This document shows, piece after piece, positions 8,504 to 64,000 of a DNA stretch of 64,000 nt; the stretch's first letter is position 1, and each line of letters opens with the position of its first letter. A program made the position numbers and the translations under genes. Below the pieces are notes generated by a model. It had not been told where the DNA came from. It did not search any database and saw only the letters and a list, made by a program, of their open reading frames with translations. This stretch comes from Strigamia acuminata (lineage: Eukaryota > Arthropoda > Chilopoda > Geophilomorpha > Linotaeniidae): NCBI GenBank assembly GCA_949358305.1, contig OX442319.1:2294001-2358000 (forward strand), read 5' to 3'.

Positions 8504-8587
8504 TTCGTTTTTATTTTTTTACTTTTTGCATTTTCAATTTTGTTTGCTGAGTGTGCATTATTACTAAAATTCACAGCTTGTACTGAT

Positions 8588-8705
8588 GTGAACGACCATA
8601 CCACGCTGAAAACACCGGTTCTCGTCCGATCCCCGAAGTTAAGCAGCATCGGGTCTGGTTAGTACTTGGATGGGTGACCGCCTGGGAATCCCAGATGTTG
8701 TTCTC
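8588..8705 (+). rRNA. 5S rRNA copy 43
   Basis: Repeats copy 33: C112T. Confidence 0.95.
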
Positions 8706-8789
8706 TTCATTTTTATTTTTTTACTTTTTGCATTTTCAATTTTGTTTGCTAATCATTCGGTATAACTAAAATTATTAGCTCTTACTGAT

Positions 8790-8907
8790 GTGAACGACCA
8801 TACCATGCTGAAAACACCGGTTCTCGTCCGATCCCCGAAGTTAAGCAGCATCGGGTCTGGTTAGTACTTGGATGGGTGACCGCCTGGGAATCCCAGATGT
8901 CGATCTC
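8790..8907 (+). rRNA. 5S rRNA copy 44
   Basis: Spacer A (aatcattcggt form); C17T and T114A in the 3' arm of the closing helix. Confidence 0.92.
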
Positions 8908-8994
8908 TTTGTTTTTATTTTTTTTCTTTTTGCATTTTCAATTTTGTTTGCTGAGTGTGCATTATTATTACTAAAATTCACAGCTTGTACTGAT

Positions 8995-9112
8995 GTGAAC
9001 GACCATACCACGCTGAAAACACCGGTTCTCGTCCGATCCCCGAAGTTAAGCAGCATCGGGTCTGGTTAGTACTTGGATGGGTGACTGCCTGGGAATCCCA
9101 GATGTCGTTCTC
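8995..9112 (+). rRNA. 5S rRNA copy 45
   Basis: Spacer B with an extra tta; C92T. Confidence 0.92.
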
Positions 9113-9205
9113 TTCGTTTTTATTTTTTTACTTTTTGCATTTTCAATTTTGTTTGCTGATCATTCAGTTATTTCAGTATAACTAAAATTATTAGCTCTTA
9201 CTGAT

Positions 9206-9323
9206 GTGAACGACCATACTACGCTGAAAACACCGGTTATCGTCCGATCCCCGAAGTTAAGCAGCATCGGGTCTGGTTAGTACTTGGATGGTTGACCGCC
9301 TGGGAATCCCAGATGTCGTTCTC
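9206..9323 (+). rRNA. 5S rRNA copy 46 (divergent)
   Basis: Spacer A with a 9-nt insertion (ttatttcag repeated); C15T, C34A and G87T. The most divergent complete copy, one unit from the array edge; it may be a decaying gene. Confidence 0.85.
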
Positions 9324-9407
9324 TTCGTTTTTATTTTTTTACTTTTTGCATTTTCAATTTTGTTTGCTGAGTGTGCATTATTACTAAAATTCACAGCTTG
9401 TACTGAT

Positions 9408-9462
9408 GTGAACGACCATACCACGCTGAAAACACCGGTTCTCGTCCGATCCCCGAAGTTAA
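9408..9462 (+). pseudogene. Truncated 5S rRNA at array edge
   Basis: The first 55 nt match the consensus and then break inside the A-box region (after gaagttaa) into unrelated single-copy DNA. The C box and 3' half are missing, so pol III transcription is not expected. This marks the right boundary of the array. Confidence 0.9.
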
Positions 9463-32975: not shown

Positions 32976-35900
32976 ATGGAGAATGTCTTCCCGAAACAAA
33001 TCAGAAGTAGCAGCGTGTCAGACGATGAGTAAGATACAAATGCGATCTATTTTGCACCTCATTTTAATTTAATGAAATAAAATCATTCTCCAGTTGTATT
33101 CCAAAAGAAAACGTGACCGACATTTTGTGTCCAGCACTGCAGGAATACGTAACGAATCAATTGAACCAGATGCGGTTCAACCACTTCCTAACGGACATGA
33201 TTCTCCATTGCGAAGAACAGGAGTTTGATGTACACAGTTCAGTCATGGCAGCCAGTAGCGGGTAAATTCACACGTTGTCATCATAATAAAGGGTGTCCCA
33301 AAAATAACGCAAGATTTGAATTAGCTGCCATTTGTGCAGTAAATTGTTGGCAACCCTGAAACAACAACGATTTGACAGCTGAAAGTTTAGGGTTTTATCT
33401 GCCGTAATTGGATTATATTGATGTGGCCAATATGTGGTTTCAACAAGACGGTACAAGAAAAAGGGGCCAATTCTGATCACCGAAACCGGTGATGTCTCAT
33501 GCAGTAATTGAATTGTTTCCATGGTTGTATGGCAATATGGCATGTGGCACCGTCTTGTTGAAACCACATATTGGCCACATCAATATAATCCAATTTCGGC
33601 AGATAAAACCCTAAACTTTCAGCTGTCAAATCGTTGTTGTTTCAGGGTTGCCAACAATTTACTGCACAAATGGCGGCTAATTCAAATCTTGCGTTATTTT
33701 TGGGACACCCTATATAATACAGAGAATAATTTCTTGAGGTTTTTTTCAGGTTTTTCCAAGAGTTAGTGTGCAAGACCGGTCACATATCCAGCATCCAGCT
33801 GCCCAATGTGAAAGCCAGCGCCATTTCCTCACTCTTGTCATACATCTACACGGGCAATTTAGACGCTTTGCACAATGTGAGCGACCTGCGCAACATCTTG
33901 AAAGCTGCAACGTGGCTTCAAGTAACCGATTTTCTCGACCACGTTGCTGCACTTATTCCACAACTTTTAAACAGCGAGAATTACTTGGACATATGGGAAG
34001 TTGCGGACGAGTTTGAAAACGACGCCGTGGTGAGGGAAATAGAGAGATTTGTCATCATGAACTATGAACATCTGTGCACGCAAGCGCTTTTTCTCGAGTT
34101 TACGCCGGACAGAATGCAATGCGTGTGCAAACACGCGGATTTTCGAAAAATTGCCACTCACGTTGTGTTGAAGTCGATCATCAGCTGGGTCGACTACGAC
34201 AAGAATATTCGGCGTAATTTTATATCTTCGCTGTTGGTGTGTATCCACGAGAATTATGTTGATGAGGAGGTGAGAAATGACGTCGAGCAAAGAAGTGACA
34301 CGTCAGCCAGACAAAAAGTAAACAATTCAATGACCTGTAACACTTCTCCACCAAGAACATCCTTATCACCTCCGCAGAGAGACACGGCTGTGGAGTCGAA
34401 GCCGGCCCACGTTGTGGCCGATCGAATTGTTGCGACTTGTCCGGAATCAGTTTCGCGTCCGGCCAAAATAAAAGCGTGTTTGTCGCCGTTCCAAAATCAG
34501 GTGGAACTTGATCTGTCCGCGGAGGAAGAAGAAACTGCGACCACGAGTTCGCCGAATACAAGACCGACATCTCCGCCATTGATTTTAAACGAAGAATCGC
34601 ACATTTGGGGCTCACCGACGTTTTCTAAAGACCAGTACTACAGTCAAGTAGCCATTTCAGAATACACGACTAAAACGCCACGGTCACGAGCGAGTGAACG
34701 CACGATCGATTTTCCAATTGCAGGTACCGGTATTCTGAGAACATAAGGTCAAAAGTTATAATTCACAGTGTCCAGGGCCAGTCCAGCAATGCTTGTGGAC
34801 TCTGGCCAACCTCAAGAGTGCACCTCTTTGCCATTGGCCGAGCCATTTCACTTGTGCAGTGATACCAAAAAATAGAACAAAATACATGTTCAGTGCTTTC
34901 CAGACAAAACAAGCAATAAAAAAATTCAAAAGTTGCTTGCTTTCCTGACAAAGCAACCAATAAACTGAACAAACTGAACAAACATGTATTTGAAATCATG
35001 AATTGAGAATACATTTTATTATACAAAACAAATAAATTTACATTATTTCAATTATTATAATAATCAAACAAAGTAAAAACAGAACAAAACTACTTTTCCT
35101 GGTGCAGAACACACTCCACAGTTGGGGGGAAGTAATCAGGCTCGGCCAATGGGAGAAGAGACCTCTTTTGAGTCGAACATGAGTATAGTGTAGCACAAAT
35201 TTGAGCACAAATTTTGGTTTTGGAATTAAAGGGCTTCTGTCCTTCGAGAACTTCGAGAACTTCGAGAACCTATAAATCCGCTCCAAATTCAAGGGCTCCT
35301 CTTTCGGAAATGTTCCGCCTTTCTTACTTTAATCCGGCCCTGCATTCATTCGTTTTGCTATTGACATATAACAACATCTTTGTTGTTCGTGGAAATTAAA
35401 TAATAATTACATCTTATATCGTTTTATATCGCTTGTTTAGTTTAAATGCATTATTGAGTAATATTGAGTAATATCGATTAATATTGTCTACATATTTCAG
35501 AAGATTTCAACATTATGTCACAAGACTCGAGATCACTTCTTCAAATGCTCGACTCCAGCATGAACATGACAGTTCTAGATTGTAGTACAAGTTCAGGGGA
35601 TAATGCAATGATACAGCAGGACCCATTACAACACGTGGACTCTGATGCCACCATTCATTCTCCGCAAATACTTGCGTCTTCAGATTCCCTAGCATTGTCT
35701 TTAAACTTGGACAGTTTTGACAAGCTGAGCAGAGAGTACGACTTAATCAAATACTGCAGAAGTGCAAATTCTCAGAGCAGTTTCTCGCACAAGGAAAGGG
35801 TGCCACGACTTCACCTGACGGCAGTGAGCAACGACAACTGCCATTTGAGGCGTTTTGCCAGTCGATGTAAAATCATTGTCAATCACACACGAAGAGACGA

Positions 35901-38900
35901 TTCTCCGAAGCTGTGCGACTCGAATTCCAGCACGGTTGCAAGCACGCCGGAGTCTTTGTCGTGGCCCTGCATTTGCCCCATTTTGCAACCGTCCGACATA
36001 AGCATCATCGAAGCGGTGACGGCACTATCGGAAAGGTCATCTTTTTCACCGGAAGAGTCGGAAGCCATTATGATGTTTAACCAGGCGTTGTCCGATAAAC
36101 TGAGTTCCATTCCTGAACGTGAAACCAATTGCTTACAGCCAATGAAAACTGTTCCTATACCGGTGTATCATCCCATGTTTTATCTCAATAGGAATGCTTT
36201 GGAGAAAAGTGCCTTTAAGCCGGTGACGAGGAATAATAATCGTTCTGCAAAAGTAGTTACGCATGAAGAAGTGGTGACCAGAGATGAGAACGAGACAAAG
36301 ACGACGAGGGCGGAGACGAAGGCGTCGAGAAAGCATCATAAAAGCGGTGTTCATCAGCAGAATCGGAGAACTAATGAGAGGGCTGCGAATACTGCGATGG
36401 AGTTTGAAAGAGCGCACAAAACTAAACACAGCAAAGTGGCAAATACGCATTTAGCGGTGGACAATCTGTCGGAAGATTCTTATGCTAGTAGCAGAGAAAC
36501 TCTGACGGGGCTTTATAATTTCAACCAGCAGCTGAATTTGCGATACTGGTCGCGCAACTTTGACGGAAGTCCACTTACTGAACCGGTTGTTGTGATTCTT
36601 GGTCATCAGAAGCATGGGCCACTGTTGATGTTGAATTTCAACTTGGATAGTCATGCGTGGAGAAGATCGGAAGAAATTGAAACTATTTTCAAGAAAAAAA
36701 AGTAGGTGAAAAACAATGTGGATTTGTTCAATGCTTATAACCAGAAATGATGCGTTTAATTCTTTAAGATGTTTTAAAAGCTTTTTGTTTCTGATTTGAA
36801 GCGTGGATTTGCTGCTGTTGTCTGTGGTCAACGTACCATTCCTAACAATAAATTCGATGAAATGATACATTAAAATCCAGAAAAAATTCCAACAGAGAAA
36901 CCAAAAATCAAACCTAACCTAACCTGACCTGATCTAACCTAACCTGACCTGACCTGACCTGACCTAACCTGACCTAACCACGTAGCAACGTGAATAACAT
37001 CCCGACAACAGCCACAGCCGCAGCTACTATTCGAGGGCGACTATTAATCGGTAAAATGCAGTACTTAAATTTGGGACCAGCAAAACGTTTTAGTTTTAAT
37101 AGTTTGTGATGACACCTGCCTTTAATCAGCGCTCATGAGGCCCCGCCAGTCCGCAAACAATTTAGCGTGGTTTTACTTGGTTTAAATACAACAAGGTTAA
37201 TAACTCCTCAAATGCAGCAAAACAGAGTACCGTATTCTACAGACCATAAAACGCGGTTTTTTGCTTTAAAAAATCGACCAAAAGTGGATGGTGTGACTTA
37301 TACTCCAAAGAATGTAGGGTCCACCATACGTTACACCATAATTTATACACAAACTCCTGCAATCCTAATGAATATGAGTGCAGAACAAAAGAAATGTTCT
37401 TATAACGTGAATTATAAATTGGATGTGGTAAATTATGCAAAAGAACATGGAAACCGAGCAGCAGGCAGACATTTTGGTCCAGCACCAACAGAAAAAATGT
37501 ATACTTCCAGATCTCGCTTGTCTCGTAATTTCAGTCTCGGAGATCGCGGTCCTTTTTAGTCTCAGGATATCGGTCTCGGCAAAACGAGATTTTATTATTA
37601 CGAGATACAATAAAAAATGTACAACTCATGTTATGAGATCGGAAGGTCTCGGACGAGATCTCGTCTTGGAACCTTCCGATCTTGTCTCGGAAAACCGAGA
37701 CTTGAAAACGGCCGAGATGCTGGAAGTGTAGAAAAAATGATTCGTAAGTGGATGTGTTTTTTCGTCCAATAAAACTTTTTTTTCTAAAAATTGACTCATA
37801 TATTTGGGGGATGCGTTTTATGGTCCGTAAAATACGGTACAACAAATGAAAACCCAATAAAGAGTTTGCGAGATGCATTTTTCCCTTACAGTTAAAGACT
37901 ATACGGTATAAAAATAGTGTAAGGGGAAAATGATAAATTAAGTTTTTGCGGGCTGCACTTTTCCCTTATCACTACACTATTTCAGCCAACTACTGACAGT
38001 TAGTAATTTTGGGCCTAAAAATTTAATTTGGGGGCATAAATGTACAAATTTCTGCATAAAATTCCATTATTGTGCCTATGAAGTATGGTTTTGGGCCTAA
38101 AATTCAATTTTAGGCCTCACTTATCATTCAATCTACGTACCTATGACTGATGTGACTGATGTGTTTGATCGAGACAACAAAATAATCGCCATTTGCAATG
38201 GGCGGAGCTAACAATATAGTGTTCTCAATTCTGATTGGCTGCGCTACATTTTAATTTAGTGTTGAAAACGATACACTAAAGATTTTTCCCTTACGATATG
38301 GCACTAAAATAGTGTAACGTAGAGAAAAATAAGGGAAAAATGCATCCCGCAAACTCTCTATTATCACTTTTATCTTTAGTTTAGAGCTTCTGCGAAATGG
38401 GATTTCGGTTGTGTATAAAAACCAAGTTTACATCATCGGTGGCGAAGACAAGCACGGAACTCCAAAACCAACAGTTCTTATTTTACAAATGCGTGAACAT
38501 TTCCAACCAACATTATCGTCTTCCTTGCTGGTACCCAGATCCGGTTCCGGTGGCACAATATTCCAAGACAGCATTTATGTGGTCGGTGGAATTACTGTTG
38601 GTGGAAAAATACTAAACCACGCTGAACGTTTCGCATTTGACAGCAAGGAATGGAAAGAAATTGAACCGCTGCCAGTGTATGGATGGGCGATGAGTCTGGC
38701 AGAATTGGGCAGGAAGTTGATATCGGTTGGAGGCCGCAGAAGTGGAGAATGTGCGATTGGTTGCTACAGTTACGATCCTGATGCGGATCAATGGACGCAA
38801 CTTTTGGGCATGCCGAAAGACTTCGAATCTCCATACTCATTAGTAACGCTTTATGGCAATCAAGTATTGGCATTCAGGTAAATCAATTGAAATTTTAACG

Positions 38901-44212: not shown

Positions 44213-45732
44213 TTAATTGCGAATGGTGGTATCCAATACCATCTCGAGAAATTGTTCGTAGTTGACGTTGATTACGCCAGTTTGACTCGTATCTCGAATC
44301 CGGAATGCGTCCGTTAAGATCTTGAGCATGACGCACGCTTGGATAAAGTCGTCGAACTTTATACTACCCATTGCACTTCTATCGAACTTCTGTATCACCA
44401 GCTGGCAAAAGTTAGGGGTCAACCTACAAAACAAAGTAAATATTTTTTAAAATAGGTCGTTTGATAAAATTTTGTTGCGTTTGAGAAATTTGAGAATTTT
44501 TTTTGGAGAAATTTGGGAATTTTTTTGGAGAAAATTGAGAATTTTTTTGGAGAAAATTGGGAATTTTTTTGGAGAAAATTTAGAATTTTTTTGGAGAAAA
44601 TTGGGAATTTTTTTGGAGAAAATTTAGAATTTTTTTGGAGAAAATTGAGAATTTTTTTGAAGAAAATTGAGAATTTTTTTGGAGAAAATTGAGAATTTTT
44701 TTGGAGAAAATTGAGAATTTTTTTGGAGAAAATTGAGAATTTTTTTGGAGAAAATTGAGAATTTTTTTGGAGAAAATTGAGAATTTTTTTGGAGAAAATT
44801 GAGAATTTTTTTGGAGAAATATGAGAATTTTTTTGGAGAAATATGAGAATTGTTTTTGACAAATTTTAGAATTTTTTTGGACAAATTTAAGAAATTTTTT
44901 TGACAAATTTGAGAAATATTTTTTGACAAATTTTAGAATTTTTTTGGACAAATTTGAGAAATATTTTTTGACAAATTTGAGAAATTGTTTTGACAAATTT
45001 GAGAAATTTTTTCGCATTCATCCGTACCTGTAACCAAACAACGAAAGTGCTTGATACAATTCTTGAGCATCAATTGTCCCCGACCTATCACGATCAAACG
45101 AATCGAAACATCGTTTCCAGTCCTGAATATATTTCCACAACGCTTCAAACTCATAAATATCTATATTTCCGGACCGATCGTGATCGAACATCCCAATCAT
45201 AAGTCGACAAGTTTCCTGTAAAAAAAAAAAAGTAAAAATAAATTAAAATCCAATTCAAAAACAGCAAACCTTTAAAACAATTACCTCGTTAAACGGTGAC
45301 CAATTTCCATTAATAAGAGCTCGCTGCAGTTCTTGCACGGTGATCTTACCACTTCTATCCTCATCTACAGCAACAAACCACTGCCACAGTTCAGGATTCA
45401 CACCGGGTGGTGCCATGGCAACGCCGCCATAACCTTCAAAAACATTTAAAAAACAATGAAAATCAGTTCAAACTAGAATCAATAACATTTATTACCTCCA
45501 TGTCGCTGCGGTTGATTACCATACACTTGTTGATATCCCTAAGAGACGTTAAAAGTGAAGTATTAACAAATAGTAAACAAATAATTATAAATCACGAACG
45601 TAGACCTGTGCAATGCTATTTGTTCATGTTCATGCACAGATAACGATTAAAGATTACGGGAGAAATTGTGCAAATCATAATTGTGTCATCTTATTTTACC
45701 TGTGGTGCTCCGTAAGCCGGACCCCACGACAT
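44213..45732 (-). CDS. PEF1: Peflin-like penta-EF-hand protein
   Basis: Exons in transcript order: complement of 45700-45732, 45496-45538, 45285-45433, 45028-45215 and 44213-44423. Phase-consistent, 207 residues. A short Gly/Tyr/Pro/Gln-rich N-terminus (MSWGPAYGAPQ, GYGG) precedes five EF-hands. EF1 (VDEDRSGKI), EF2 (FDHDRSGNI) and EF3 (FDRDRSGTI) have good calcium ligands. EF4 (FDRSAMGSI) and EF5 (RDTSQTGVI) are degenerate, as expected for the dimerising end. FIQACVMLKILTDAFR matches the peflin signature. Peflin partners ALG-2 in calcium-regulated ER export. The N-terminal tail is shorter than in vertebrates. The last intron is largely minisatellite. Confidence 0.88.
44484..45012. repeat. 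22-bp minisatellite in peflin-like intron
   Basis: About 24 copies of gagaatttttttggagaaaatt and variants (gacaaatttgagaaattttt toward the right). It fills nearly the whole 604-nt intron. Two overlapping minus-strand ORFs rich in SPKKFSIFSKK are an artefact of this repeat. Confidence 0.9.
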
Positions 45733-51861: not shown

Positions 51862-51879
51862 ATTTTTATTGGAGTCTAT

Positions 51880-52391
51880 TGTCACGCGGTTGAGTTGCGT
51901 CGTCTGCCGACCAGCTCAAACCAGCGATAGAATTAAAGAAGTTGTCAAAATCTATCACTAGCCAGCGTACGTGATGGTGACATCACGGGCTGGTCAATCT
52001 GGATTAACTCAGGGGGTGACTCTAGTATAAAAGAGCCACTTTGGCTCTTAGAACTCAGTCCATCCCGGGCTTCTAAACAGTTAGCACCAGCCAGCAAATG
52101 GCGTGGTGTGATTGTTTCCCTCCAAACTGAATCAAAGTGTTAATCATATCTTAGAGTATTTATTAGGTTTAGTTTAGATTTAGTTTTACATTTTGTATTT
52201 ATGATTTAAGTGTTTTGATTTAAAGAATAAAGACACGGTATTGTTTTCAATCTTAAACTCTGGCTTTGTTTCATTTCACTCTTAGCTAATTAAGTCACTC
52301 TTTAGCTCAGCTAGTATTAGTGAAGCTAAAGGATTCTTAGTAAATAAGCAATAAGTTACGTGGTCACTATTGGCCATTTGGCCACGTAACA
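51880..52391 (+). repeat. 5' LTR of the complete element
   Basis: 512 bp; begins tgtcacgcgg, ends cacgtaaca. Carries a TATA motif (agtataaaagag, near 52027) and AATAAA near 52226. Confidence 0.95.
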
Positions 52392-52394
52392 AAG

Positions 52395-52410
52395 TGGTGG
52401 AGATTGCGGT
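52395..52410 (+). other. Probable primer-binding site
   Basis: tggtggagattgcgg starts 3 nt after the LTR with the TGG expected from a tRNA CCA end. The second element has tggtggagatgcgg in the same place. I cannot name the tRNA. Confidence 0.5.
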
Positions 52411-53148
52411 TTTCTTTTTAGACCCACTAATTGGTTTGATAAAAGTAGTGAAAAGTGAAAATTTACAGTAAAAATCAGCCAGTTTTGTGTAAAAATTGAA
52501 TAATTAGAGCTAAAACCCCGTAAAAACTCAGTTAAAAATAAGAATTCTTATAAAATTTAGAAGGAGTGCAGATTAATTTGCATATTGGATAGAAATAAGA
52601 GTGAATCATAGAGTGACTCAGAGTTTGAAGACAGTATAGTGATTGAATATTTAATTGAGTTGCATTGAATTAGATAATATTTTGGATTTAATTATTAAAG
52701 TTGTTTAATATTGTTGAATATTGAATTTTGCAGGAAAATTTATTTTGATAATAATATACTTAATAAAGTTTAATAAATTTAATTTTTTGTTTACAGGAAA
52801 TTGATAAATTAGTGATAATTTATATAGATTCTGTTGTTGACTAATAATAATAATTGTTTATTTTCCAGAATTTGGATAATTGTGAAACATAAAAATGAGA
52901 ATATTTTTCAGGATAAGGATTTTGAATATTGAGTGTTTATTTAATGATAAAACATTGATTGATAACGATTACATTATAGGTAATGTGTTTTTTTTGATAT
53001 ATGTTGAGGTTTATGTTGATTTCAATGATTAATTGCATAAAGATTTATTTCAGGATAAGTGATTGGTGAATTTTGGTTGTAGTGAATGTGTGGAGGTGCA
53101 TTATAGAGTAGTGAAAATAAAAATTATAGTGCATTTCAAGGCTTAATA
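52411..53148 (+). other. Leader of the complete element
   Basis: AT-r ich non-coding leader between primer site and gag. Several acceptor-like tracts (e.g. tttatttcag near 53054) would allow a spliced gag mRNA. Confidence 0.4.
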
Positions 53149-53502
53149 GTGGATAAACCAGTGAAGCTTACACAGACACAAACGGACAATTTACTAGACT
53201 TACAGAAACAAGAATTACAAAGATTAGTGGATAACCCTAATATAACCAAAACTAGGAAGAAATCAAAATCACAGTCGGGATCGGAAGTAAAGGAGGAAGA
53301 TCCAGTTGTTGAAATAAAGGAGGAAGATCAATTTCAAGATTCATTATCGCAACAAGAACTTGATTTGTCCTCACCTTTGAAATTAACAAGACCAAAAGAG
53401 TTAAAATCAATTTTTGAATTACTAACACCAATAAAGACTATACAAACACCTTTATTAAAAACTAATACACAAGGATCCACATCAAAAGGAATAGTATCCA
53501 AG

Positions 53503-54507
53503 ATGGCGGACCCAACGGCAGTACTAACTGATTTATTTAAGAGTTTGATGATACAAAAGCGACCTGTCGTTTGTTTTGATACGGAAAAAGGGAATATTGA
53601 TCAGTGGCTCGTGGCTTACGAAGCAACAATAGGCACAGATGATGAGAGAGTTAAACAATTGCCATTAGCGTTAAAAACTGATGGTCTGGCGTGGTATGTG
53701 GAATTGCTCAAGAAAAATCCAACATGGACTTGGACAGAGTGGAAACCACAACTAGAAGATAAATTTCGTAGAGGCCAGGAAAATGTTTTAAATACTCTTC
53801 ATTTTATGTCGCATACAGAAGGAACAGCAGATGCCTATATGAAAAAAGTTTTGGCTGAGTGTGCTTTTGTAAGGCCGGAGCTCACTGAACATCAAAAGAT
53901 TAATTATGTTTATCAAGGTATGAAACCCGATATGAAGAAGATGATAATTACAGTATTCCCATCCACACTGGCAGAGATGGAACAGAGGGTGAAGTTGTAC
54001 GAGACCCACAAGGTTAAGGATCCAGCGGATTTACTGCTCTCACTTTTCAAAAAGGTGGTGGATGAAAAGGTAACTCCAGCGACATCAGGTAAACTGAGTG
54101 GAACTGTGGAAACCTCATTAACCCACGCCGAGCTTTTAGCTGAAAATGCAATGTTAAGGCAACGGTTATTAGCTCTTGAGACGGTGGAACCGACGTCAGA
54201 AGAACCCATCTTGATAGGAAGCCAGTGGTATACACCAATGAAGCGAGGAGGTCAGAATTTTCAGTATAAGAATTTTCAAAGAGGTAGTACTAATAGAGGT
54301 GGTAGTCAAAATTACAATACTAACAATAACAATAATAGTAATAATAATAATACTCGATCTTGTGGATGCTATCATCACTTTACTTGCGAGTTTTATAATC
54401 CACCAAGGTACCAACAGGATAGAGGTGGTACTGCTGGAAGACCAAGAAGACGTAGAAGAGAAGGTCCTAGTACTACAGTCAACACCCAACAACAGACGGA
54501 AAACTGA
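53503..54507 (+). CDS. Gag of the complete LTR element
   Basis: Structural capsid protein. The first ATG in frame (context aagATGgc) gives 334 residues; the frame is open for 118 further codons upstream (from 53149) without an ATG. The core has a Ty3-type Gag pattern (GNIDQWLVAYEA, WYVELLKKNP, KFRRGQENVLNTL, KINYVYQGM). The C-terminus is Asn-rich and, instead of a CCHC knuckle, has CGCYHHFTC followed by an Arg-rich stretch (RPRRRRREG). Ends at a TGA placed directly after the heptamer ggaaaac. Confidence 0.85.
   Translation: MADPTAVLTDLFKSLMIQKRPVVCFDTEKGNIDQWLVAYEATIGTDDERVKQLPLALKTDGLAWYVELLKKNPTWTWTEWKPQLEDKFRRGQENVLNTLHFMSHTEGTADAYMKKVLAECAFVRPELTEHQKINYVYQGMKPDMKKMIITVFPSTLAEMEQRVKLYETHKVKDPADLLLSLFKKVVDEKVTPATSGKLSGTVETSLTHAELLAENAMLRQRLLALETVEPTSEEPILIGSQWYTPMKRGGQNFQYKNFQRGSTNRGGSQNYNTNNNNNSNNNNTRSCGCYHHFTCEFYNPPRYQQDRGGTAGRPRRRRREGPSTTVNTQQQTEN
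54498..54504 (+). promoter_or_regulatory. Probable -1 ribosomal frameshift site (ggaaaac)
   Basis: Zero frame reads acg gaa aac tga; the -1 frame (gga aaa ctg) is open from here straight into pol. The matching site of the second element is a canonical G GGA AAC, which supports this reading although the heptamer here is imperfect. Confidence 0.6.
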
Positions 54508-54593
54508 GAAGTCGGCCACAGAGAGATTGTCACCATCCGAATAGAAGTAAGAAGAAAAAGAAGAAAAGATGGAAAAAGGACAACATTACAGTA

Positions 54594-57500
54594 ATGGATA
54601 TAAAAATTTCGGAATCATTGTTGGAAATCCCGGTAATTGTAAAGAATTTGGAAATAAAGGCAGTCATGGACACTGGAGCTAAGAAGAACATTTTGAGTGA
54701 AGAGTTAGCAGAAATATTACAGTTGGATTATCAACCTACACCTAACGTTAGATTACGAGGAATAGGAACTGATTTAATAACTCCAGTGGGTAAAACAAAT
54801 TTGAACATTCAAATAGGACAATTGCAGTATTCAGTAGAAGTATTGATAGTTAGAAGTTTCAATTACCAACTGTTATTGGGGGATCCATTTATGACTTTTG
54901 CGAGGTGTGTTGTTGATTACGATTTACAAAAAATCTTTGTGGGCCGAAAAAGTGGATTAGAAGCAGTTTTCCCGATGAATAAGACGTATGTGGACCAGAA
55001 TTACGTAGCAAGAGTGATAAAAGGCATAGCAATTCCACCAATGCATGAATGTGCAGTTCCAGTTAACCTAAGCACAGCTTTAACGAAAGAAATGTTTTTG
55101 GAACCTTTAGGAAATGTAATTGATAGGTTTGGTATTATGTGTTGTAAGACGTTAACAAAGTTTGAGAACGGCAAAGGCGTAATACGAGTGGCGAATCCAA
55201 CATCTAAGTCCATTTTTCTGCAAGAGAAGTCTGCGATTGGTAAGGCACATTATATTATTGATATTGGGTTGATGGATGAAAAACAAGCAAATTGTTTTGA
55301 CTCTAACTCCCCGAGTTCTAAGGTTGTTGAGTTGTCGAATGAAAAACAAGCAAATTGCTTTGATTTTGACTCCGCAATAGCCGAAGGTAAGATGACCAAG
55401 AACCAACAGCAACAAATGAAGCAGTTACTTCAGAAAAATCAGGACAGATTTGCCATGACAGATAAAGATTTAGGAAGAGTAACCAACTTTAGTCATAAAA
55501 TTGATACAGGTGATCATGAACCTATTCACTTGCAGCCGTACAGACGTTCAATTGCAGAAAAAGAAGTAGAAGCTGAGGAAACCAGAAAATTGTTAGAACA
55601 AGGAGTCATAAGGGAATCAGAAAGTCCCTGGAGCGCGCCAGTTTTACTCATCAAGAAAAGAGACGGTAAATGGAGGTTTTGTGTTGATTGGAGAAGGTTG
55701 AACGCAATTACAAAGAAAATGGTGTACCCACTGCCAAGAATAGATGACACGTTAGATCAACTAGCAGGGGCCCAGTTTTTCTCGATGATGGATTTAATCC
55801 AAGGATACCATCAAGTTGAAATAAATGAACAAGACCGAGAGAAGACAGCGTTCACCACTTCAACCGGACACTATGAATTTAATGTCCTTGGAATGGGGTT
55901 ATGTAACAGCCCAGCAGCGTTTCAAAAATTGATGAATAAAGTATTGGGCAACCTCCTTGGAAAAGTCTGTATAGCCTATCTTGACGACCTTATAATTTTT
56001 TCTAAAACATTTGAACAACATTTACAAGATCTGGACTCAGTCTTTGAAAAACTGCGAATTGCGAATTTAAAGGTAAAGCTAAGTAAATGCACGTTCGGGA
56101 CGGATACCATCCGGTATCTCGGACATGTGATTGATTCAGAAGGCATTTCACCAGATCCACGAAATCTCGAGTCTGTAGCAAAGTTTCCAATTCCATTAAA
56201 TGTGAAGCAGTTAAGGGGATTTTTGGGTTTGTGCTCATATTATAGAAAATTCATTTTAGGATTTGCTGATATTTCCAAACCCTTGGTCAACCTTACGAAG
56301 AAAGACGAGAAATTCGACTGGGGACCGCCTCATGAAGAAGCATTTAAACAACTAAGAACAGCTTTGGTAACAGTGCCAGTTTTGGCTCATCCTAATTTCG
56401 CACAGCCTTTCATCATATCGACGGATGCAAGCGCTTACGGTTTGGGAGCCATTTTGAAGCAAAAGCTTAACAACCAAGAGCATGTGATTTGTTATGCTAG
56501 TAGGTTATTGAGCAATGCCGAACAGAACTATAACGCGACAGAAAGAGAATGTCTGGCCATATTGTTTGGCATACAGAAATTTCGCCCTTATTTGTATGGA
56601 AAGAAGTTTACCATCATCACGGACCATTCAGCACTTCAATGGCTGAAAAGCGTCAAAAATCCAAATGGTAGGTTAGCACGATGGAGTCTGCAGTTGGTTG
56701 ACTATGATTATGAAGTACAGCATAAGTCAGGCAAGAAACATACAGATGCCGATGCGTTAAGTAGGATTCCTGAGGACATTAGTGAAGAAGTAATTATTCC
56801 TTCATTATTGCTCGAAAATCTCGATTTACCTGCAGAGCAGCGTAAAGATCAGAAGATTATGGAACTCATCACATCACTGCAGACAATAGAGCAACTTCCG
56901 CGCAAAAGAAGACGTCCGCTACAGCAGTACGTACTTCAAGGCGATATTTTGTTTAAGAAGAAATTTAATTCCTTGAACACGGAAGAATTACTGTATATTC
57001 CACAGCATTTGAGAAAAGATGTTTTAGTAGAAATGCATGATGGTCTTACAGGCGCTCATCTAGGCCTGAGTAGAACTTGGAAGAAAATTAGAACACGTTT
57101 CTTCTGGCCAAGGATTTATAGGGACGTAAGGAATTACGTACTCTCATGTCCGAAGTGTGCAAGTGCAAAAACCATGACAACACCGCCAAAAGGATTGATG
57201 CAGCCGTGGTCGACAGTGTCTCGACCATTCGAACGAGTAGCCATAGACACGTTAGGCAGTTTTCCAATATCTGACACAGGAAACAAGTACGTTTTCATTA
57301 TTACGGATTATTTATCACGCACTGCAATAGCTAGAGCAGCACCAGCGTGCACAGCTATTGAAGCAGCGAATGCCCTTGTTTATGAAGTCATGCTGAAAGA
57401 AGGAAGCCCACGAGAGATTCTGAGTGATAAGGGAACAGAATATAGAAATGAAATGATTAAGGAAATATCTGCATTGTTTAAGTCCCTTCACAAATCCACT

Positions 57501-58409
57501 TCCGGATACCATCCAAGAACAAACGGTCTTACGGAAAGATTTAATGCGACAATAGCTAAAATGTTGCAGAGTTATGTAAATAAAGATCATACTGATTGGG
57601 ACGCATTTTTACCATTTCTTCTATTCTCTTACAACACTGGAGTCCATGAAACAACAGGTTACACTCCGTATTATTTATTACGAGGTTATGAAGCAGATCT
57701 CAACGTGGATGTCAACTTAAATCTTCCTCGTAAGGAATTCACTTTGCGTACTTCCAGATTTATCAGGGAGGCAAGGAGAATTGCCAATGAAAGAATACAA
57801 GAACAAGGTTTGAAAAGCAAGAAAAGGTTTGATTTGGACAGAGTACATGTGGAATTCGATCCAGGAGAGCTAGTTTATTTGAAAACACCAAATAGAAAGG
57901 TTGGTTTGAGTGAAAAGCTCTTGCCACAATTCTCTGGGCCATATGAGATCGTACGACGAACAGCGCCGAATGACTACGAAATTCGAAGTTCATCAGGCAA
58001 AAAGATGGACATTGTGAACATAGAGCGACTGAAACCGTACAAAATGAGAGAAGAACTTTCAGAAGATATTATGAGGCCTTTAACAGCTAAAAAGGTTACA
58101 TTTGCTGAGGATTTGAAGGAAATAGACAGCGGAAAGGAAATTATCGCGAAAAACAACGTAAATTCGTCAAACAAACCTATTTCTGCAGCTACGGAACGTT
58201 TCATTGACGATGACGATCAAATATCGTTGCGAGGCTTATTCGAGGATGAACTTCCGGCAAAAAATGAGGAAAATCAACTTCCGAAACCGTCACCAGGCGT
58301 CGCAAGTGCGGTCGACAACGACGCGCATGCGCGACCACCTGAAGTTGGCAGTTTCCGGTCACGCCGCCTACGTAAACAGGCACGGCGCGATTACACTGCA
58401 TTCTACTGA
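54594..58409 (+). CDS. Pol polyprotein (protease, RT, RNase H, integrase)
   Basis: 1271 residues from the first ATG; the frame is open upstream to the frameshift site, so it is probably made as Gag-Pol. The aspartic protease motif is DTGA (Asp26). Reverse transcriptase has FCVDWRRLN, MDLIQGYHQ and the catalytic YLDD (residues 462-465). RNase H has STDASAYGLGA and TERECLA. Integrase has the HHCC zinc region (HDGLTGAHLG, CPKCAS), the DDE residues in AIDTLGSF, LSDKGTEY and LTERFN, and a GPY/F-type end (FSGPYEIV). All catalytic motifs look intact. Confidence 0.95.
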   Translation: MDIKISESLLEIPVIVKNLEIKAVMDTGAKKNILSEELAEILQLDYQPTPNVRLRGIGTDLITPVGKTNLNIQIGQLQYSVEVLIVRSFNYQLLLGDPFMTFARCVVDYDLQKIFVGRKSGLEAVFPMNKTYVDQNYVARVIKGIAIPPMHECAVPVNLSTALTKEMFLEPLGNVIDRFGIMCCKTLTKFENGKGVIRVANPTSKSIFLQEKSAIGKAHYIIDIGLMDEKQANCFDSNSPSSKVVELSNEKQANCFDFDSAIAEGKMTKNQQQQMKQLLQKNQDRFAMTDKDLGRVTNFSHKIDTGDHEPIHLQPYRRSIAEKEVEAEETRKLLEQGVIRESESPWSAPVLLIKKRDGKWRFCVDWRRLNAITKKMVYPLPRIDDTLDQLAGAQFFSMMDLIQGYHQVEINEQDREKTAFTTSTGHYEFNVLGMGLCNSPAAFQKLMNKVLGNLLGKVCIAYLDDLIIFSKTFEQHLQDLDSVFEKLRIANLKVKLSKCTFGTDTIRYLGHVIDSEGISPDPRNLESVAKFPIPLNVKQLRGFLGLCSYYRKFILGFADISKPLVNLTKKDEKFDWGPPHEEAFKQLRTALVTVPVLAHPNFAQPFIISTDASAYGLGAILKQKLNNQEHVICYASRLLSNAEQNYNATERECLAILFGIQKFRPYLYGKKFTIITDHSALQWLKSVKNPNGRLARWSLQLVDYDYEVQHKSGKKHTDADALSRIPEDISEEVIIPSLLLENLDLPAEQRKDQKIMELITSLQTIEQLPRKRRRPLQQYVLQGDILFKKKFNSLNTEELLYIPQHLRKDVLVEMHDGLTGAHLGLSRTWKKIRTRFFWPRIYRDVRNYVLSCPKCASAKTMTTPPKGLMQPWSTVSRPFERVAIDTLGSFPISDTGNKYVFIITDYLSRTAIARAAPACTAIEAANALVYEVMLKEGSPREILSDKGTEYRNEMIKEISALFKSLHKSTSGYHPRTNGLTERFNATIAKMLQSYVNKDHTDWDAFLPFLLFSYNTGVHETTGYTPYYLLRGYEADLNVDVNLNLPRKEFTLRTSRFIREARRIANERIQEQGLKSKKRFDLDRVHVEFDPGELVYLKTPNRKVGLSEKLLPQFSGPYEIVRRTAPNDYEIRSSSGKKMDIVNIERLKPYKMREELSEDIMRPLTAKKVTFAEDLKEIDSGKEIIAKNNVNSSNKPISAATERFIDDDDQISLRGLFEDELPAKNEENQLPKPSPGVASAVDNDAHARPPEVGSFRSRRLRKQARRDYTAFY

Positions 58410-58788
58410 ACTTCTTCAAAGGGAACACAAGCATATTGTTGTGACCGGAGAAAATTTTCAATTGAACTTAACAACGTGATATTTAGAAAGCTCGTGTGTG
58501 ACAGTACGTATTATTAAACAATTGAAATTGAAGATTAAATAGAGCGGAAATTTGGAGAGTTTGAAAACGAAATTAATGCGAATGATTTTCAAGAAGCTGC
58601 ATTGAAATTATTAACTTGGACATTTTTCACATTGAATAATTAATTAGTTCATAGAGAATAATTTGAATTTTACATAGTAAATTGGAAGGATAGTTGCAAT
58701 AGACGAATTTGATAGGAATTAAATTGGATTATGTTTGATTTTGGTCAACCGTATATTAATTTATTTTGTTTTTTTTTATGAAGCACGA
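58410..58788 (+). other. Gap between pol and ORF3
   Basis: AT-rich, non-coding. It ends in a poly-T tract and atgaag just before the ORF3 start, a plausible splice acceptor for a subgenomic mRNA. Confidence 0.4.
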
Positions 58789-60159
58789 ATGGAGGAGATG
58801 ACTAACAAATTTAAGCACGTGAGGATCCACGAGTCGGAGGACGAGGATGAAGTAATGTCGACATGTTCGGGAGCGTCAACTCGACTCGCTGATTTATTCA
58901 CCTGTACGTCTCGCCTGGAGCAGATTGAAGAGGGAGCGACGGCGTCATGCTCAAAGGAAACTCCTAAACTGACGGACTTTGTCAAGTTTGAACGACCATT
59001 TTCGGATGGTAAGGAACAAAGACAGGCACCGAAGGTTCACGAGCGCCCTTTGACGCCAGCGGAAAAGCATAAGATTGAGAAGCGAAAGGCGAGTGAGAAG
59101 GTGAAGAGACAGAAGATGAAGGAGGAGAAACAGGAATTTTCGGAACAGGGAATTAAGGAAATGAAGAAGCAGAACGCCAAAACCATCAAGCGAAATGAAA
59201 AGCGTCTACGCGAACTTAGGCTAGAGCAAAGGAACATGGCGATTGCAGTGGACAAGCTGAACTTGAAAGGGACAGATGGCAAGGTGATATATGAAGCTTG
59301 GTTTCAAGCGGCAGACAGGCTGCTGTTACACGAAGCTGTCATCCGTAAGAACATACAAAAGGCGAAAGCCTTAGCCAACAGGACATCATATGGAGATCCT
59401 TATTTTGACTTGCCGCCTGTTTTGTACTCATATAAAGTTCAGTTGGATGCCGACAAACAACTAGTGGCATTGCAACTCGCGCGTGACTACGCTTGGAAAC
59501 CGATCAATGACGCAGCGGTCACTATGGACGGGACACCACCGATGATTATTAAAAATCATGAGATGGCAGCTCTCGGTAGCTTAGAGCCGGGGAAAGGCTC
59601 TTGGGTTCATGCGAGTGTTATTAACTCGTATTTGGAATTACTTGCAGGATATTATAAACACGTGTGTTATTTTACTGTAGAGCTTGTTGCCTTGATGTTG
59701 GCCCGCGAGTCATTTCTTGAGGCCATAAATTTGATTAAACAGGATCGGCCGGGTAATGCGAGGCCTATTTGGCTGCTTCCAATTCCGATTGAGGAGCACT
59801 GGCAGTTTCTGATAGTTGACTGGACCAAATTCCCAACGGACATTGTTTTGTACGACCCATCGGGTCCATTGGACACTAAAAGCATTCAATGGCAGACCAT
59901 CCACAACTGCTTTACAGGTGCGGGGATTTATTTCCCGCACAGACTGAGGCAGTGGGACCCGCCGCGAGTTCAGCAGCTTGACCCAGATTCGTGTGGGCCA
60001 GCGGTGCTGTACTTTGCACGGCGCTATCTGGTGGACCGGGACTACATGCGCCATGCGCATCCGATTCATCTACGTCACCGGATTCTTTACGAATTACACC
60101 AGAAGACTTTGGAGCCATTCGAAGAAGAAAAAGAGAAGCTAAAAGCTCCTCTTCTATGA
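58789..60159 (+). CDS. ORF3: Ulp1/SENP-like (C48) cysteine peptidase carried by an LTR element
   Basis: 456 residues from the first ATG. Residues 1-90 are acidic and Ser-rich. Residues 90-165 are a Lys/Glu-rich coiled-coil. The C-terminal part fits Ulp1/SENP peptidases: SWVHASVINSYLELL resembles the conserved WLND..IN.Y.. helix; His337 lies in EEHWQFLIVDW; Asp356 in LYDPSG; Gln396 and Cys402 in QQLDPDSCG. The Gln-to-Cys spacing of 6 equals that of yeast Ulp1 (Gln574/Cys580), and His-to-Asp is 19 against 17. Known relatives cut SUMO, NEDD8 or ubiquitin-like proteins; the target here is unknown. It sits where env lies in retrovirus-like Gypsy elements, yet has no signal peptide or envelope features. 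Codons look GC-richer than those of gag and pol. Confidence 0.85.
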   Translation: MEEMTNKFKHVRIHESEDEDEVMSTCSGASTRLADLFTCTSRLEQIEEGATASCSKETPKLTDFVKFERPFSDGKEQRQAPKVHERPLTPAEKHKIEKRKASEKVKRQKMKEEKQEFSEQGIKEMKKQNAKTIKRNEKRLRELRLEQRNMAIAVDKLNLKGTDGKVIYEAWFQAADRLLLHEAVIRKNIQKAKALANRTSYGDPYFDLPPVLYSYKVQLDADKQLVALQLARDYAWKPINDAAVTMDGTPPMIIKNHEMAALGSLEPGKGSWVHASVINSYLELLAGYYKHVCYFTVELVALMLARESFLEAINLIKQDRPGNARPIWLLPIPIEEHWQFLIVDWTKFPTDIVLYDPSGPLDTKSIQWQTIHNCFTGAGIYFPHRLRQWDPPRVQQLDPDSCGPAVLYFARRYLVDRDYMRHAHPIHLRHRILYELHQKTLEPFEEEKEKLKAPLL

Positions 60160-60490
60160 ACTTTTGATTTTAAATACTTTGTTTTTTTGTGTATTTTAAT
60201 TGAGATATAAATCTCACAATTTTTTTATATATAGAAAATGTTAGAAAACCCGAAGAAAAAAAGTAATATAAAAATGTAGAAAAATCCAAAAAGTGTTATT
60301 TTGAATAGTAAAGTGTTGAATTTCATTGTAATTTCTTTTAGTGAACTTTGGAATTTTGTTTTACTTTGTAAAAGATATGATTAACACTGGGGTGGGACTC
60401 ATATATTTGATTATTTTTAAGGTATGATTAGCATATAAAATAATTGGCTTAAATTCTAAAGTACTGTGGTTTTTGGAGACCAAAAAATTT

Positions 60491-60501
60491 AAAGAGGGGG
60501 C
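60491..60501 (+). other. Polypurine tract
   Basis: aaagaggggg directly before the 3' LTR; primes plus-strand synthesis in LTR elements. Confidence 0.8.
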
Positions 60502-61013
60502 TGTCACGCGGTTGAGTTGCGTCGTCTGCCGACCAGCTCAAACCAGCGATAGAATTAAAGAAGTTGTCAAAATCTATCACTAGCCAGCGTACGTGATGGT
60601 GACATCACGGGCTGGTCAATCTGGATTAACTCAGGGGGTGACTCTAGTATAAAAGAGCCACTTTGGCTCTTAGAACTCAGTCCATCCCGGGCTTCTAAAC
60701 AGTTAGCACCAGCCAGCAAATGGCGTGGTGTGATTGTTTCCCTCCAAACTGAATCAAAGTGTTAATCATATCTTAGAGTATTTATTAGGTTTAGTTTAGA
60801 TTTAGTTTTACATTTTGTATTTATGATTTAAGTGTTTTGATTTAAAGAATAAAGACACGGTATTGTTTTCAATCTTAAACTCTGGCTTTGTTTCATTTCA
60901 CTCTTAGCTAATTAAGTCACTCTTTAGCTCAGCTAGTATTAGTGAAGCTAAAGGATTCTTAGTAAATAAGCAATAAGTTACGTGGTCACTATTGGCCATT
61001 TGGCCACGTAACA
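60502..61013 (+). repeat. 3' LTR of the complete element
   Basis: 512 bp; I see no difference from the 5' LTR, indicating a recent insertion or gene conversion. Confidence 0.95.
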
Positions 61014-61234
61014 CTATATACCGTATATCTTCTATTGGTCCGCGGGTCTCTGATTGCTGCGGATCTCTAGTAATACGCAGGGAATAATTTTTTTGTAAAT
61101 AACGCGCGGACCTCGAATAGCACGTGGGTGCACAATTGGAGCCCCAAAATTTTCGAAATGTGCCAAAAAAGGATGACAAATGATAAGTTTTGCATACGTT
61201 TTGGCAGTAATGAAACGTAATTACGGAAACATAT
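61014..61234. other. Spacer between the two LTR elements
   Basis: 221 bp starting with the target duplication ctat. Contains ccgcgggtctctgattgctgcgg and similar phrases but nothing assignable. Confidence 0.4.
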
Positions 61235-61788
61235 TGTTACGAGCGCAGACCTCGCTGTACGACAGCGGGCCTAAACGCTCTGTTTAGAGAATTAATTCTG
61301 AAAGCTCTCACTAGGCACACTGGAGTTTCCAAATCCGCTCACCAGTTGTCACTGTGTTAATTATGCACAGGGCAACTGGACTAATCAATCAAGTAGAGCG
61401 GGGGTGGACCCAGAGTTTACCTGGTGAGCTAAGTGGGTTTGAGAGAGCAGAAATGTTCTGAGCCTCAAACAGTTAACATGGTAAGTAAAGGCTTCTGTGG
61501 ACCAGCGCACACAGCGCTTGGTCCCACCCCGCCTTTCCAAATTCATAGAGATATAATTTGATTATCATTCTTGCTTTCTTGCTTTATGTTTATGTAAAAT
61601 AAAGGATTATGTTTATCATTTGATTTTGTTAAGTTTGTAATAAGTCCCATAGAATAAAAGAGATTTATTTAAATGATAAATCAGTTCTCTCAATCATTTC
61701 ACCTAAAGGATTTCAAGGTCTTTGCTAAATTAATTAGCATTTGTTATGTGTGTGGATCACCCCAACCCACACGTAACAAAGTGGTGGA
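61235..61788 (+). repeat. 5' LTR of the second element
   Basis: 554 bp, tgttacgagc to acgtaaca. The boundary is set by TG...CA and by alignment of the LTR/primer-site junction with the complete element; the 3' LTR is outside the window. Confidence 0.8.
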
Positions 61789-62557
61789 GATGCGGAATTA
61801 AAAGACCCTGTATAATTGCTTTATTTAAGAGCTAAAATGTTAGTAAAAATCTGGAATTTTGAGTAAAATAGTTGAAAATTTGTCCCTGAAAATGAGTAAG
61901 GTTGAGAAAGCAAATTGCCTATAATATTATCAGATTTGAAAGCAAATAAAGAGACTTGTGAAAATCAATTTTAGTGTGAAAATTGAGAATTGGGAATGAA
62001 TATTTAATTGTTTTGTGTGAAAATGTTGAATATTTAATTATCTTGTGTAAAAGTGTTGAATATTTAAGTGTTTGAGTTGAAACTGAGCATGAATGTTAAA
62101 TGAGTTTGCATGTTACTGAATATTTAATTAGTTGAAAACAATTAAACAGTATTTTAGAATTAAAGCCTAGTTTTAATGATAAATCATTTTAAGGTTATAC
62201 ATATTTTGAATAATTTTAAGAATTGTAAATAGTTTTAAAACAATTTTAACTCATGCACAGTTATAAGTAATAATATTATGAATTATTTTCTTTTCTCCTT
62301 AGCATGGTGAAAGTGTTTTAGTGATTAGTGTTTCACAGGTGAGGTGAATTTGTGTTTTGTGAGTGTGTGCCTTCTATGGTTGGAGTGGATCCATATTGAA
62401 GCTGGATCCTTCAAATATAACATTTCGCAAGAAATCATCAAGTATAATTGCGGAAGACAGAGAGCGACACTACACATTAACAACAGAATTCAAGTCTGAT
62501 GAACATTTGGATAGTGAGATAGAACCAGAGGATAGTGAACCTCTAGAAGAAGTCAAG

Positions 62558-63625
62558 ATGGCGACTAGCTCAACTGCAACGTTGGAAACCCTATTAAAAG
62601 GACTAGTAGTGCAAAAGCGCAATCCAGTCAATTATGATACCAGAACGGGGAACATTGACGAATGGATTGTTGGTTATGAAGCGATTGTTGCTACGGATAC
62701 GGAACGTGCCAAGCATCTGCCGATTGTAATGAAGGAAGATGCGCTCTCCTGGTACGTCGAGCAGCTACAAGCTAACCCTAGCTGGGCTTGGGACGAATGG
62801 AAAGCAGCATTGCAGAAAAAATTCCGCCGTAGGCCCGAGCACGTCCTCAATACCCTACACGCTCTTAAGCATGAAGAAGGGACAGCCATTGACTTTATTA
62901 AGAAAGTTCTCCACTTGTGTTCATTTGCCAGACCAGCCCTCAGTGAAACCCAGAAAATCAACTATGTCTATCAGGCTATGAAACAGCCGATAAAAGACAG
63001 GTTGATGACAGTTTTTCCTACAGCTATGGATGATTTGATGGAAAGAGTTCAGCTTTATGAAGCCCATGGAGTGAAGGAAGATCCGTCGACAGCTTTACTG
63101 ACCCTTGTACAGAAACTTGTGGCTGACAAGGCGACCGTCGCACCGTCAACTTATTTGACTGGAGTGGCAGAAGCCCCAAAGTCGCTCGCAGAACTTGTAG
63201 CAGAAAACAACTTTCTAAAAGAACAGAATATGTTTTTGCAGAATGGCGTATTGCAAGAGACGATCTCTCCAATTTTCCATCAAGGGACTTGGTTTACCCC
63301 AGTCAACAATCAGCGTCAAGGAGGAAAATTTTTCCAAGGAACCCAGCAGAAGCAGCAGCAATTCCAGCAAAGTTCTCCGCAGAACTGGCAGAATTTTCAG
63401 CAGCAGCAAACTGGACCCGGATGTTTCCATCAGCCCAACTGCACCTGCTGTGCGTCACAAAACAGAGGTGGCGGTGGGAAGAGGCGTGATACTTGGCGTT
63501 ATAATAATAAGAATAATGAAGAAAATAACAGTAACCAAGGAAATGGTCCTGCTAACAATAACAGCGGTAATAACCAAGCAAGAAATCCACCTGGGAATCA
63601 AAAACAACAGAACCGGGGAAACTAG
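62558..63625 (+). CDS. Gag of the second LTR element
   Basis: 355 residues from the first ATG (same aagATGgc context as in the first element). The frame is open for 65 codons upstream without an ATG. The core parallels the first Gag: GNIDEWIVGYEA, WYVEQLQANP, KFRRRPEHVLNTL, KINYVYQAM. The C-terminus is Gln- and Asn-rich with CFHQPNCTCC instead of a CCHC knuckle. Ends at TAG right after gggaaac. Confidence 0.85.
   Translation: MATSSTATLETLLKGLVVQKRNPVNYDTRTGNIDEWIVGYEAIVATDTERAKHLPIVMKEDALSWYVEQLQANPSWAWDEWKAALQKKFRRRPEHVLNTLHALKHEEGTAIDFIKKVLHLCSFARPALSETQKINYVYQAMKQPIKDRLMTVFPTAMDDLMERVQLYEAHGVKEDPSTALLTLVQKLVADKATVAPSTYLTGVAEAPKSLAELVAENNFLKEQNMFLQNGVLQETISPIFHQGTWFTPVNNQRQGGKFFQGTQQKQQQFQQSSPQNWQNFQQQQTGPGCFHQPNCTCCASQNRGGGGKRRDTWRYNNKNNEENNSNQGNGPANNNSGNNQARNPPGNQKQQNRGN
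63616..63622 (+). promoter_or_regulatory. -1 ribosomal frameshift heptamer (gggaaac)
   Basis: Zero frame: cgg gga aac tag, a canonical X XXY YYZ slippery site (G GGA AAC) with the stop codon next. The -1 frame continues open into the protease region. Confidence 0.75.
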
Positions 63626-63669
63626 TAGTGCCACAAAGACAGTTAAAAAGTAGGCGTAGGAGAAGAAGA

Positions 63670-64000
63670 ATGAGAAGGAAGTTGGAAATAGTTGACATTA
63701 ACACCACTGAAGAAATGCTGACAATACCTGTCGTAGTGAACAATTTAGAAGTCAAAGGTGTATTGGATTCAGGTGGATATAGAAATATTATAAGTGAGGA
63801 ACTGGCTGATAGATTGCAACTGTCACGTCGGCTTTGCCCTTATATCAAATTGAGGGTAATTGATAACTCCTTAATATCTCCTGAAGGAATTGGGAAAATT
63901 ACAGTCACTATTGGAAGATTGGACTACAGCATGGAGGTATTAGTAGTGCGGGGATTTGGTCATGAGCTCTTACTAGGTGATCCTTTCCTCAAACAAGCAG
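63670..64000 (+). CDS. Pol of the second element, N-terminal part (protease), cut by window end
   Basis: First ATG of the pol frame; the frame itself is open from the frameshift heptamer. Aspartic protease with the motif DSGG (VLDSGGYRNIISEELADRL) where the first element has DTGA, then ELLLGDPF. Continues beyond the window. Confidence 0.85.
   Translation, partial: MRRKLEIVDINTTEEMLTIPVVVNNLEVKGVLDSGGYRNIISEELADRLQLSRRLCPYIKLRVIDNSLISPEGIGKITVTIGRLDYSMEVLVVRGFGHELLLGDPFLKQA

Follow-up and report, generated by a model that had tools for sequence, protein, structure and literature searches.

A Ty3/Gypsy retrotransposon with a candidate Ulp1/SENP-like cysteine protease gene in the envelope position

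Introduction

Genes encoding enzymes in the position of the envelope gene (env) are known from LTR retrotransposons. The closest example that we found, according to the part of the source available to us, is that of the Vesta and Juno elements of bdelloid rotifers (PMC5408684), which, as we propose for the element reported here, carry a captured enzyme and no envelope protein in the env slot. Their third open reading frames (ORF3s) are typically expressed from spliced messages and show no significant departures from neutrality, but they encode a GDSL esterase and a DEDDy exonuclease rather than a Ulp1-like protein, and neither “ulp1” nor “C48” occurs in the accessible part of that paper. Retrotransposons with a Ulp1-like cysteine protease have also been described, namely NeSL and Utopia-1_TSP (PMC4640811), but these are non-LTR elements of nematodes and, as far as the available text goes, their protease forms the N-terminus of the element protein and not a separate ORF3.

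Further parallels, again as given in the accessible portions of the respective papers, come from elements that are not retrotransposons. Ginger1 (PMC2836005) shares with our element a Gypsy-like integrase accompanied by a Ulp1 (or OTU) domain, but it is a DNA transposon with terminal inverted repeats and its Ulp1 domain is fused to the transposase. The KIU (Kaonashi) proteins of MULE/Vandal elements (PMC13317346) likewise place a Ulp1 domain in a mobile element and are tied to anti-silencing as Ulp1-bearing members of an anti-silencing family of plant MULEs; these, however, are DNA transposons, and in the available text no function is assigned to their Ulp1 part either. A C48 peptidase is also found in CryptonF and CryptonS (PMC3212892), in some CryptonS as an additional protein, but both are tyrosine-recombinase transposons of oomycetes. 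Polintons and their relatives (PMC10175614) combine a retrovirus-like integrase with a Ulp1-like cysteine protease, yet they are DNA-virus-like elements in which the protease lies within the virion gene set. Finally, the LTR element Cer1 (PMC10309623) produces a nuclear protein, CERV, from a spliced mRNA, two features which we infer for the ORF3 described below, but CERV is presented there with a role in RNA export and no protease.

Here we describe a Ty3/Gypsy element located in a stretch of DNA of 64,000 nucleotides, which we call the window. A preliminary description of this DNA had named MULEs, Polintons and Ginger-type elements as carriers of Ulp1/C48 peptidases, which matches the papers cited above, and had pointed out that such a gene was not known to it as ORF3 of an animal Ty3/Gypsy element. 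Our literature search, with Repbase and most subscription journals outside its scope, found no Ulp1/C48 ORF3 of a Gypsy element in the texts accessible to it, and PMC7264820 makes no mention of ulp1, protease, peptidase or SUMO. The novelty is narrower than had been suggested, as Ulp1-like domains are already present in the retrotransposons NeSL and Utopia-1_TSP. Ulp1-like domains in mobile elements and enzymes in the env slot are each known, and what is apparently new is their combination, a Ulp1-like ORF3 in a Gypsy element.

Results and Discussion

An LTR element intact in outline

The element (51880-61013, 9134 bp) is a Ty3/Gypsy LTR retrotransposon, intact in outline, with open gag and pol genes and the following parts:

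51876..51879 (left) and 61014-61017 (right), no strand: target-site duplication CTAT (from the sequence)
51880..52391, + strand: 5' LTR, 512 bp, TGTCAC...GTAACA (from its identity to the 3' LTR)
52392..52409, + strand: putative primer-binding site AAGTGGTGGAGATTGCGG (from the sequence)
53503..54507, + strand: gag, 334 amino acids from the first ATG (open reading frame; frame open upstream to 53107)
54594..58409, + strand: pol, 1271 amino acids from the first ATG at 54594, with protease, reverse transcriptase, RNase H and integrase (open reading frame and Pfam)
60491..60501, + strand: polypurine tract AAAGAGGGGG plus C, adjoining the 3' LTR (from the sequence)
60502..61013, + strand: 3' LTR (from its identity to the 5' LTR)

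The two LTRs are identical at 512 of 512 bases, which indicates that the copy is young, and the CTAT duplication lies directly outside both ends. Each LTR carries a TATAAAA and an AATAAA signal, in the 5' LTR at about 52026 and about 52226, respectively. No stop codon interrupts the gag or the pol frame; the latter, in the -1 frame, is open from 54471 and hence shares 37 nt with gag. The Pfam domains of pol follow each other in the order protease, reverse transcriptase, RNase H and integrase. Integrase_p58_C is matched with 38 bits at residues 1115-1148, a GPY motif is located at residue 1115 in the integrase C-terminus, and the integrase core (rve) scores 25 bits, under its Pfam cut-off of 32.6. 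The gag product likewise stays under the cut-off for Ty3_capsid (17.8 bits, E=0.0024, cut-off 29.1), for which the Gag of a neighbouring element reaches 26.4 bits.

Inside pol, 5' of the reverse transcriptase, there is an imperfect direct repeat of 47 bp (55264-55373), 83% identical and 63 bp from start to start.

The neighbouring element is a second, related Gypsy element in the same orientation, which begins 221 bp downstream (61235-64000) and is cut by the window end before any ORF3 position. Its 5' LTR (61235-61778), the ends of which were placed from TGTTAC...GTAACA and a site like a primer-binding site, is followed by a stretch near-identical to the putative primer-binding site of the first element. 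The two Gag proteins are 49% identical over 258 amino acids and the Pol starts 50% over 103 amino acids.

A third open reading frame with Ulp1-like catalytic residues

ORF3, with 456 codons plus stop, is located 3' of pol and 5' of the polypurine tract. We assign to it the following features:

58789..60159, + strand: ORF3, 456 amino acids, predicted Ulp1/C48-like cysteine protease (open reading frame, Pfam and residue check)
59569..60156, + strand: ORF3 residues 261-456, putative C48-like catalytic domain (PF02902, 20.1 bits, E=6.1e-4)
59041..59376, + strand: ORF3 residues 85-196, basic, predicted-helical N-terminal region with K/R clusters (AlphaFold2 model and composition)
58764..58783, + strand: possible 3' splice site, a T-rich tract followed by ATGAAG, just 5' of the ORF3 ATG (judged from the sequence)

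A chance ORF can be ruled out: in 2000 Markov sequences of the same length (first-order, built from the dinucleotides of ORF3 itself) the longest ATG-initiated ORF had 204 codons and the mean was 69. The catalytic residues His337 (EEHWQF), Asp356 (VLYDPSG), Gln396 and Cys402 (both in QQLDPDSCGP) are found in the order typical of C48 peptidases. Gln and Cys are six residues apart, which we take to be the spacing of yeast Ulp1 (presumably H514, D531, Q574 and C580), and on these assumed Ulp1 numbers the arrangement is Ulp1-like. When the six frames of the window were searched with a loose His-Asp-Gln-Cys pattern, the single match was ORF3, and ten Markov sequences of 64 kb each contained no match. 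The preliminary description is thus borne out with regard to the 456-codon frame and all four residue positions, and also in its account of an apparently intact Ty3/Gypsy element with an ORF in the env position, for which the LTRs, the CTAT duplication, the polypurine tract, the open gag and pol genes and the Pfam domains all speak.

An envelope protein was also considered for ORF3 and rejected, as the N-terminus is not hydrophobic and neither a clear membrane helix nor an R-x-K/R-R site is present. The highest hydropathy over 19 residues is 1.43, in a simple hydropathy test for signal peptides and membrane anchors rather than by a dedicated predictor, and there is one N-glycosylation motif.

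In the N-terminal half, helices are predicted at residues 90-156 and 162-196 (pLDDT by blocks 71-83 for residues 91-150 and 51-63 for residues 151-200). Lysine and arginine account for 32 of the 116 residues between positions 85 and 200 and form clusters (KRK and KRQK, for example) by which the protein might be directed into the nucleus. ORF3 may be expressed from a spliced mRNA of the env type, since the T-rich tract ends in AG a few bases before the ATG.

Codon usage and relatives

The codon usage of ORF3 hints at its acquisition from outside this element, as it is unlike that of the element's own gag and pol. GC3 is 0.535 in ORF3 against 0.35 in gag and 0.37 in pol, and 456-codon stretches sampled from pol range from 0.346 to 0.404, so that ORF3 lies outside. 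Its codon use correlates at 0.59 with pol and at 0.53 with gag; as a control, 500 random 456-codon samples of pol were each compared with the remainder of pol, which gave a mean correlation of 0.86 and a minimum of 0.66. The highest correlation (0.73) was obtained with a pool of three of the five host-like ORFs of the window (878 codons, GC3 0.495). This likeness to host codon use is modest, because the pool is small and the two ORFs left out of it, a zinc-finger array and an ORF at 42510, have a lower GC3 (0.299 and 0.418, respectively); moreover, the gag of the neighbouring element (GC3 0.456) correlates with ORF3 almost equally (0.70).

In the protein collection, 2442 relatives of pol scored E<=1e-10, and among the 120 of them listed those with a species name come from the pseudoscorpion Cordylochernes scorpioides, the spiders Trichonephila clavipes and Araneus ventricosus, and the tick Nuttalliella namaqua, at identities of 36-53%. 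These species hint at an arthropod host, and an animal host is also supported by the C2H2 zinc-finger array and the BTB-BACK and Kelch pieces of the window. With the whole of ORF3 no match at E<=0.01 was obtained among the best 7997 candidates by shared words, and with residues 205-456 none at E<=10 among 818 candidates, in a search that requires shared 5-residue words and similar length. Viral contigs (7 pattern matches) and genome contigs (16 pattern matches) contained no ORF3 relative. PF02902 was not among the precomputed domains of the 120 listed pol relatives (of 2442), several of which are longer than this pol, and a Pfam search of five of them (P0001, P0060, P0069, P0106 and P0011; up to E=0.1) gave no C48. 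Comparing ORF3 with the same 120 proteins by blastp returned 10 rows with a best E of 1.0, and the loose His-Asp-Gln-Cys pattern was present in two of the 120.

A search of viral contigs with the pol of the window gave no relative (140 pattern matches). With an alignment of 15 rows, made of the window pol and 14 of the 120 listed relatives (2442 in total), 1 + 17 distant Gypsy loci were recovered (L001-L018). The single locus comes from IMG/VR, whereas the 17 are in genome bins of prokaryotes and appear to be eukaryote contamination. In these 18 loci ORF3 had two tblastn matches, with E-values of 4.9 and 7.3, and a single locus (L006) fitted the loose pattern; none is convincing and we take them as chance.

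These observations bear on the most serious alternative, in which ORF3 would be a recently transduced host SENP-like gene, a passenger of no use to the element that is intact only through its young insertion. Identical LTRs mean that there was no time for decay, and the openness of the frame in this one copy is therefore weak evidence that says little on selection. The GC3 outside the range of pol and the codon use closer to the pooled host ORFs than to pol or gag would also fit a passenger, but the host signal is modest, with the neighbour's gag almost as close and two host-like ORFs of lower GC3. A further point against a passenger is that no close relative was detected in the protein collection, arachnid annotations included, the host's own genome lying outside that search. 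Nor does the location favour a passenger, since ORF3 occupies the place of an env gene, 3' of pol and ahead of the polypurine tract, and a possible splice site is found where it begins. A single host-gene capture that is otherwise decaying had been named at the outset as a finding that would speak against the proposal, and of this the capture fits the codon use and decay was not seen. We regard a useless passenger as a real possibility, if an unlikely one.

Family assignment and predicted fold

The sole Pfam match of ORF3 is Peptidase_C48 (PF02902), with 13.9 bits (E=0.05) for all 456 residues, 18.8 bits (E=0.0015) for the last 256 and 20.1 bits (E=6.1e-4) for the last 196. All three query lengths score below the curated cut-off of 20.7 bits, and we therefore call ORF3 C48-like rather than a member of C48, an assignment that is supported but weak. 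None of eight shuffled versions of the last 196 residues matched any Pfam family, and NCBIfam gave no match with ORF3. Of the peptidase originally proposed, the family is thus the only one that the profiles return, and the best score (20.1) falls short of membership.

Since no relatives of ORF3 had been found, AlphaFold2 was run on the single sequence, and both resulting models are poor, with a mean pLDDT of 42 for the whole protein and 38 for residues 255-456. In both, one strand covers about 327-334, another begins at His337 or beside it, a third, short one stops immediately before Asp356, and a helix follows Cys402 from position 404 on, an order which we take to be that expected of a Ulp1-type fold. 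When the poor domain model was compared with known structures by Foldseek, SENP1 ranked second (E 0.87), SENP5 third (0.93) and the poxvirus I7L protease 16th (2.5), none of them significant. The 50 rows listed for the full-length model were largely long helical chains with no C48 protease and nothing significant among them, and the 50 rows listed by VIA-align contained no chain of the CE clan, which by the tool's own statement is not evidence against the fold. A sequence search of the PDB with the 196-residue query returned SENP1 and SENP5 at E 0.79-0.98, fatty-acid amide hydrolases scoring slightly better than SENP1, and no SENP either for the whole of ORF3 (seven sequences up to E=10) or for a 154-residue query. 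Judged from the sequence, a Ulp1-type fold of the C-terminal domain appears likely.

C48 and adenain belong to one clan, and ORF3 might also be a processing protease of the adenain or poxvirus I7L kind, which would cut Gag or another structural protein and not remove SUMO. Besides the common clan, the DPSG that follows a strand in ORF3, presumably a resemblance to adenain-like enzymes, and the presence of I7L among the Foldseek matches of the poor domain model could be seen in this light, but the SENPs rank above I7L in the same search, C48 is the only Pfam family matched, and the Gln-Cys spacing is that of Ulp1 and not the seven residues which we assume for adenain. As pol already has an aspartic protease of its own, we consider a processing role very unlikely. 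That ORF3 is instead an accessory protein without protease activity, for example a nuclear RNA-export factor like CERV, which the LTR element Cer1 expresses from a spliced message (PMC10309623), and that its catalytic pattern is coincidental or inactive, would agree with the C48 score under the cut-off, the unconfirmed fold and the recurrence of the loose pattern in other Pol proteins and loci, but is barely credible in view of four residues in the right order within typical motifs (HW, YDPSG, Q-x5-CG), a pattern unique in the window and absent from the Markov sequence, and an independent PF02902 match.

A possible role against SUMO-dependent silencing

We hold it to be reasonably likely that ORF3 encodes a divergent Ulp1/SENP-type cysteine protease, captured by the Ty3/Gypsy element and placed in its env slot, which would act as a nuclear de-SUMOylating enzyme. 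Its protease fold and activity, the capture, the splicing and the nuclear location are all features that we infer. The gene would most likely have been captured from the host or from another mobile element, and the protein would probably be made from a spliced mRNA. Its location is most likely inside the cell and probably in the nucleus, as judged from the lack of a signal peptide and of a clear membrane helix and from the K/R clusters in its basic, predicted-helical N-terminal half. Its most likely role there would be to strip SUMO, or a related modifier, from other proteins; SUMO-requiring host silencing factors are the most plausible targets, along with Gag or integrase of the element itself. 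Such a captured SENP-like protease would probably be active and would serve the element, perhaps against SUMO-dependent silencing, although its substrate and its anti-silencing role are speculative.

Precedents for such a role exist. According to the available part of the respective studies, Piwi-mediated silencing in the fly ovary requires SUMOylation (PMC8733420), and the plant KIU proteins combine a Ulp1 domain with membership of an anti-silencing family (PMC13317346). The host Ulp1 at the nuclear pore of yeast restrains the transcription of Ty1, and impaired Ulp1 raises Ty1 RNA (PMC8585004). A SUMO protease therefore need not help an element, and the direction of its effect is not given.

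That the protease in fact replaces an envelope in an animal Gypsy element and disarms SUMO-dependent (piRNA or heterochromatin) silencing goes considerably further, and we judge it to be clearly unlikely. If true, an LTR element would here possess a dedicated enzyme to counter this host defence. To our knowledge, little is known about counter-defence by animal retrotransposons. Whether transposons fight SUMO-dependent silencing could be tested directly if a SENP-like protease belongs to an element as young and apparently complete as this one. The element would also add a type of gene to the enzymes of the env slot, and would suggest that Ulp1-like domains move freely between classes of elements.

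Other features of the window

The window starts with a tandem array of 46 5S rRNA genes, all on the + strand, in a 202-bp repeat (1-9462). A C2H2 zinc-finger array with units of 84 bp (17954-19481) extends over two overlapping frames, so that it either is a pseudogene or contains a frameshift or an intron. The BTB-BACK and Kelch pieces at 33766-38881 resemble exons of a single host gene. A 22-bp tandem repeat with 24 copies (44483-45012) is open in two minus-strand frames.
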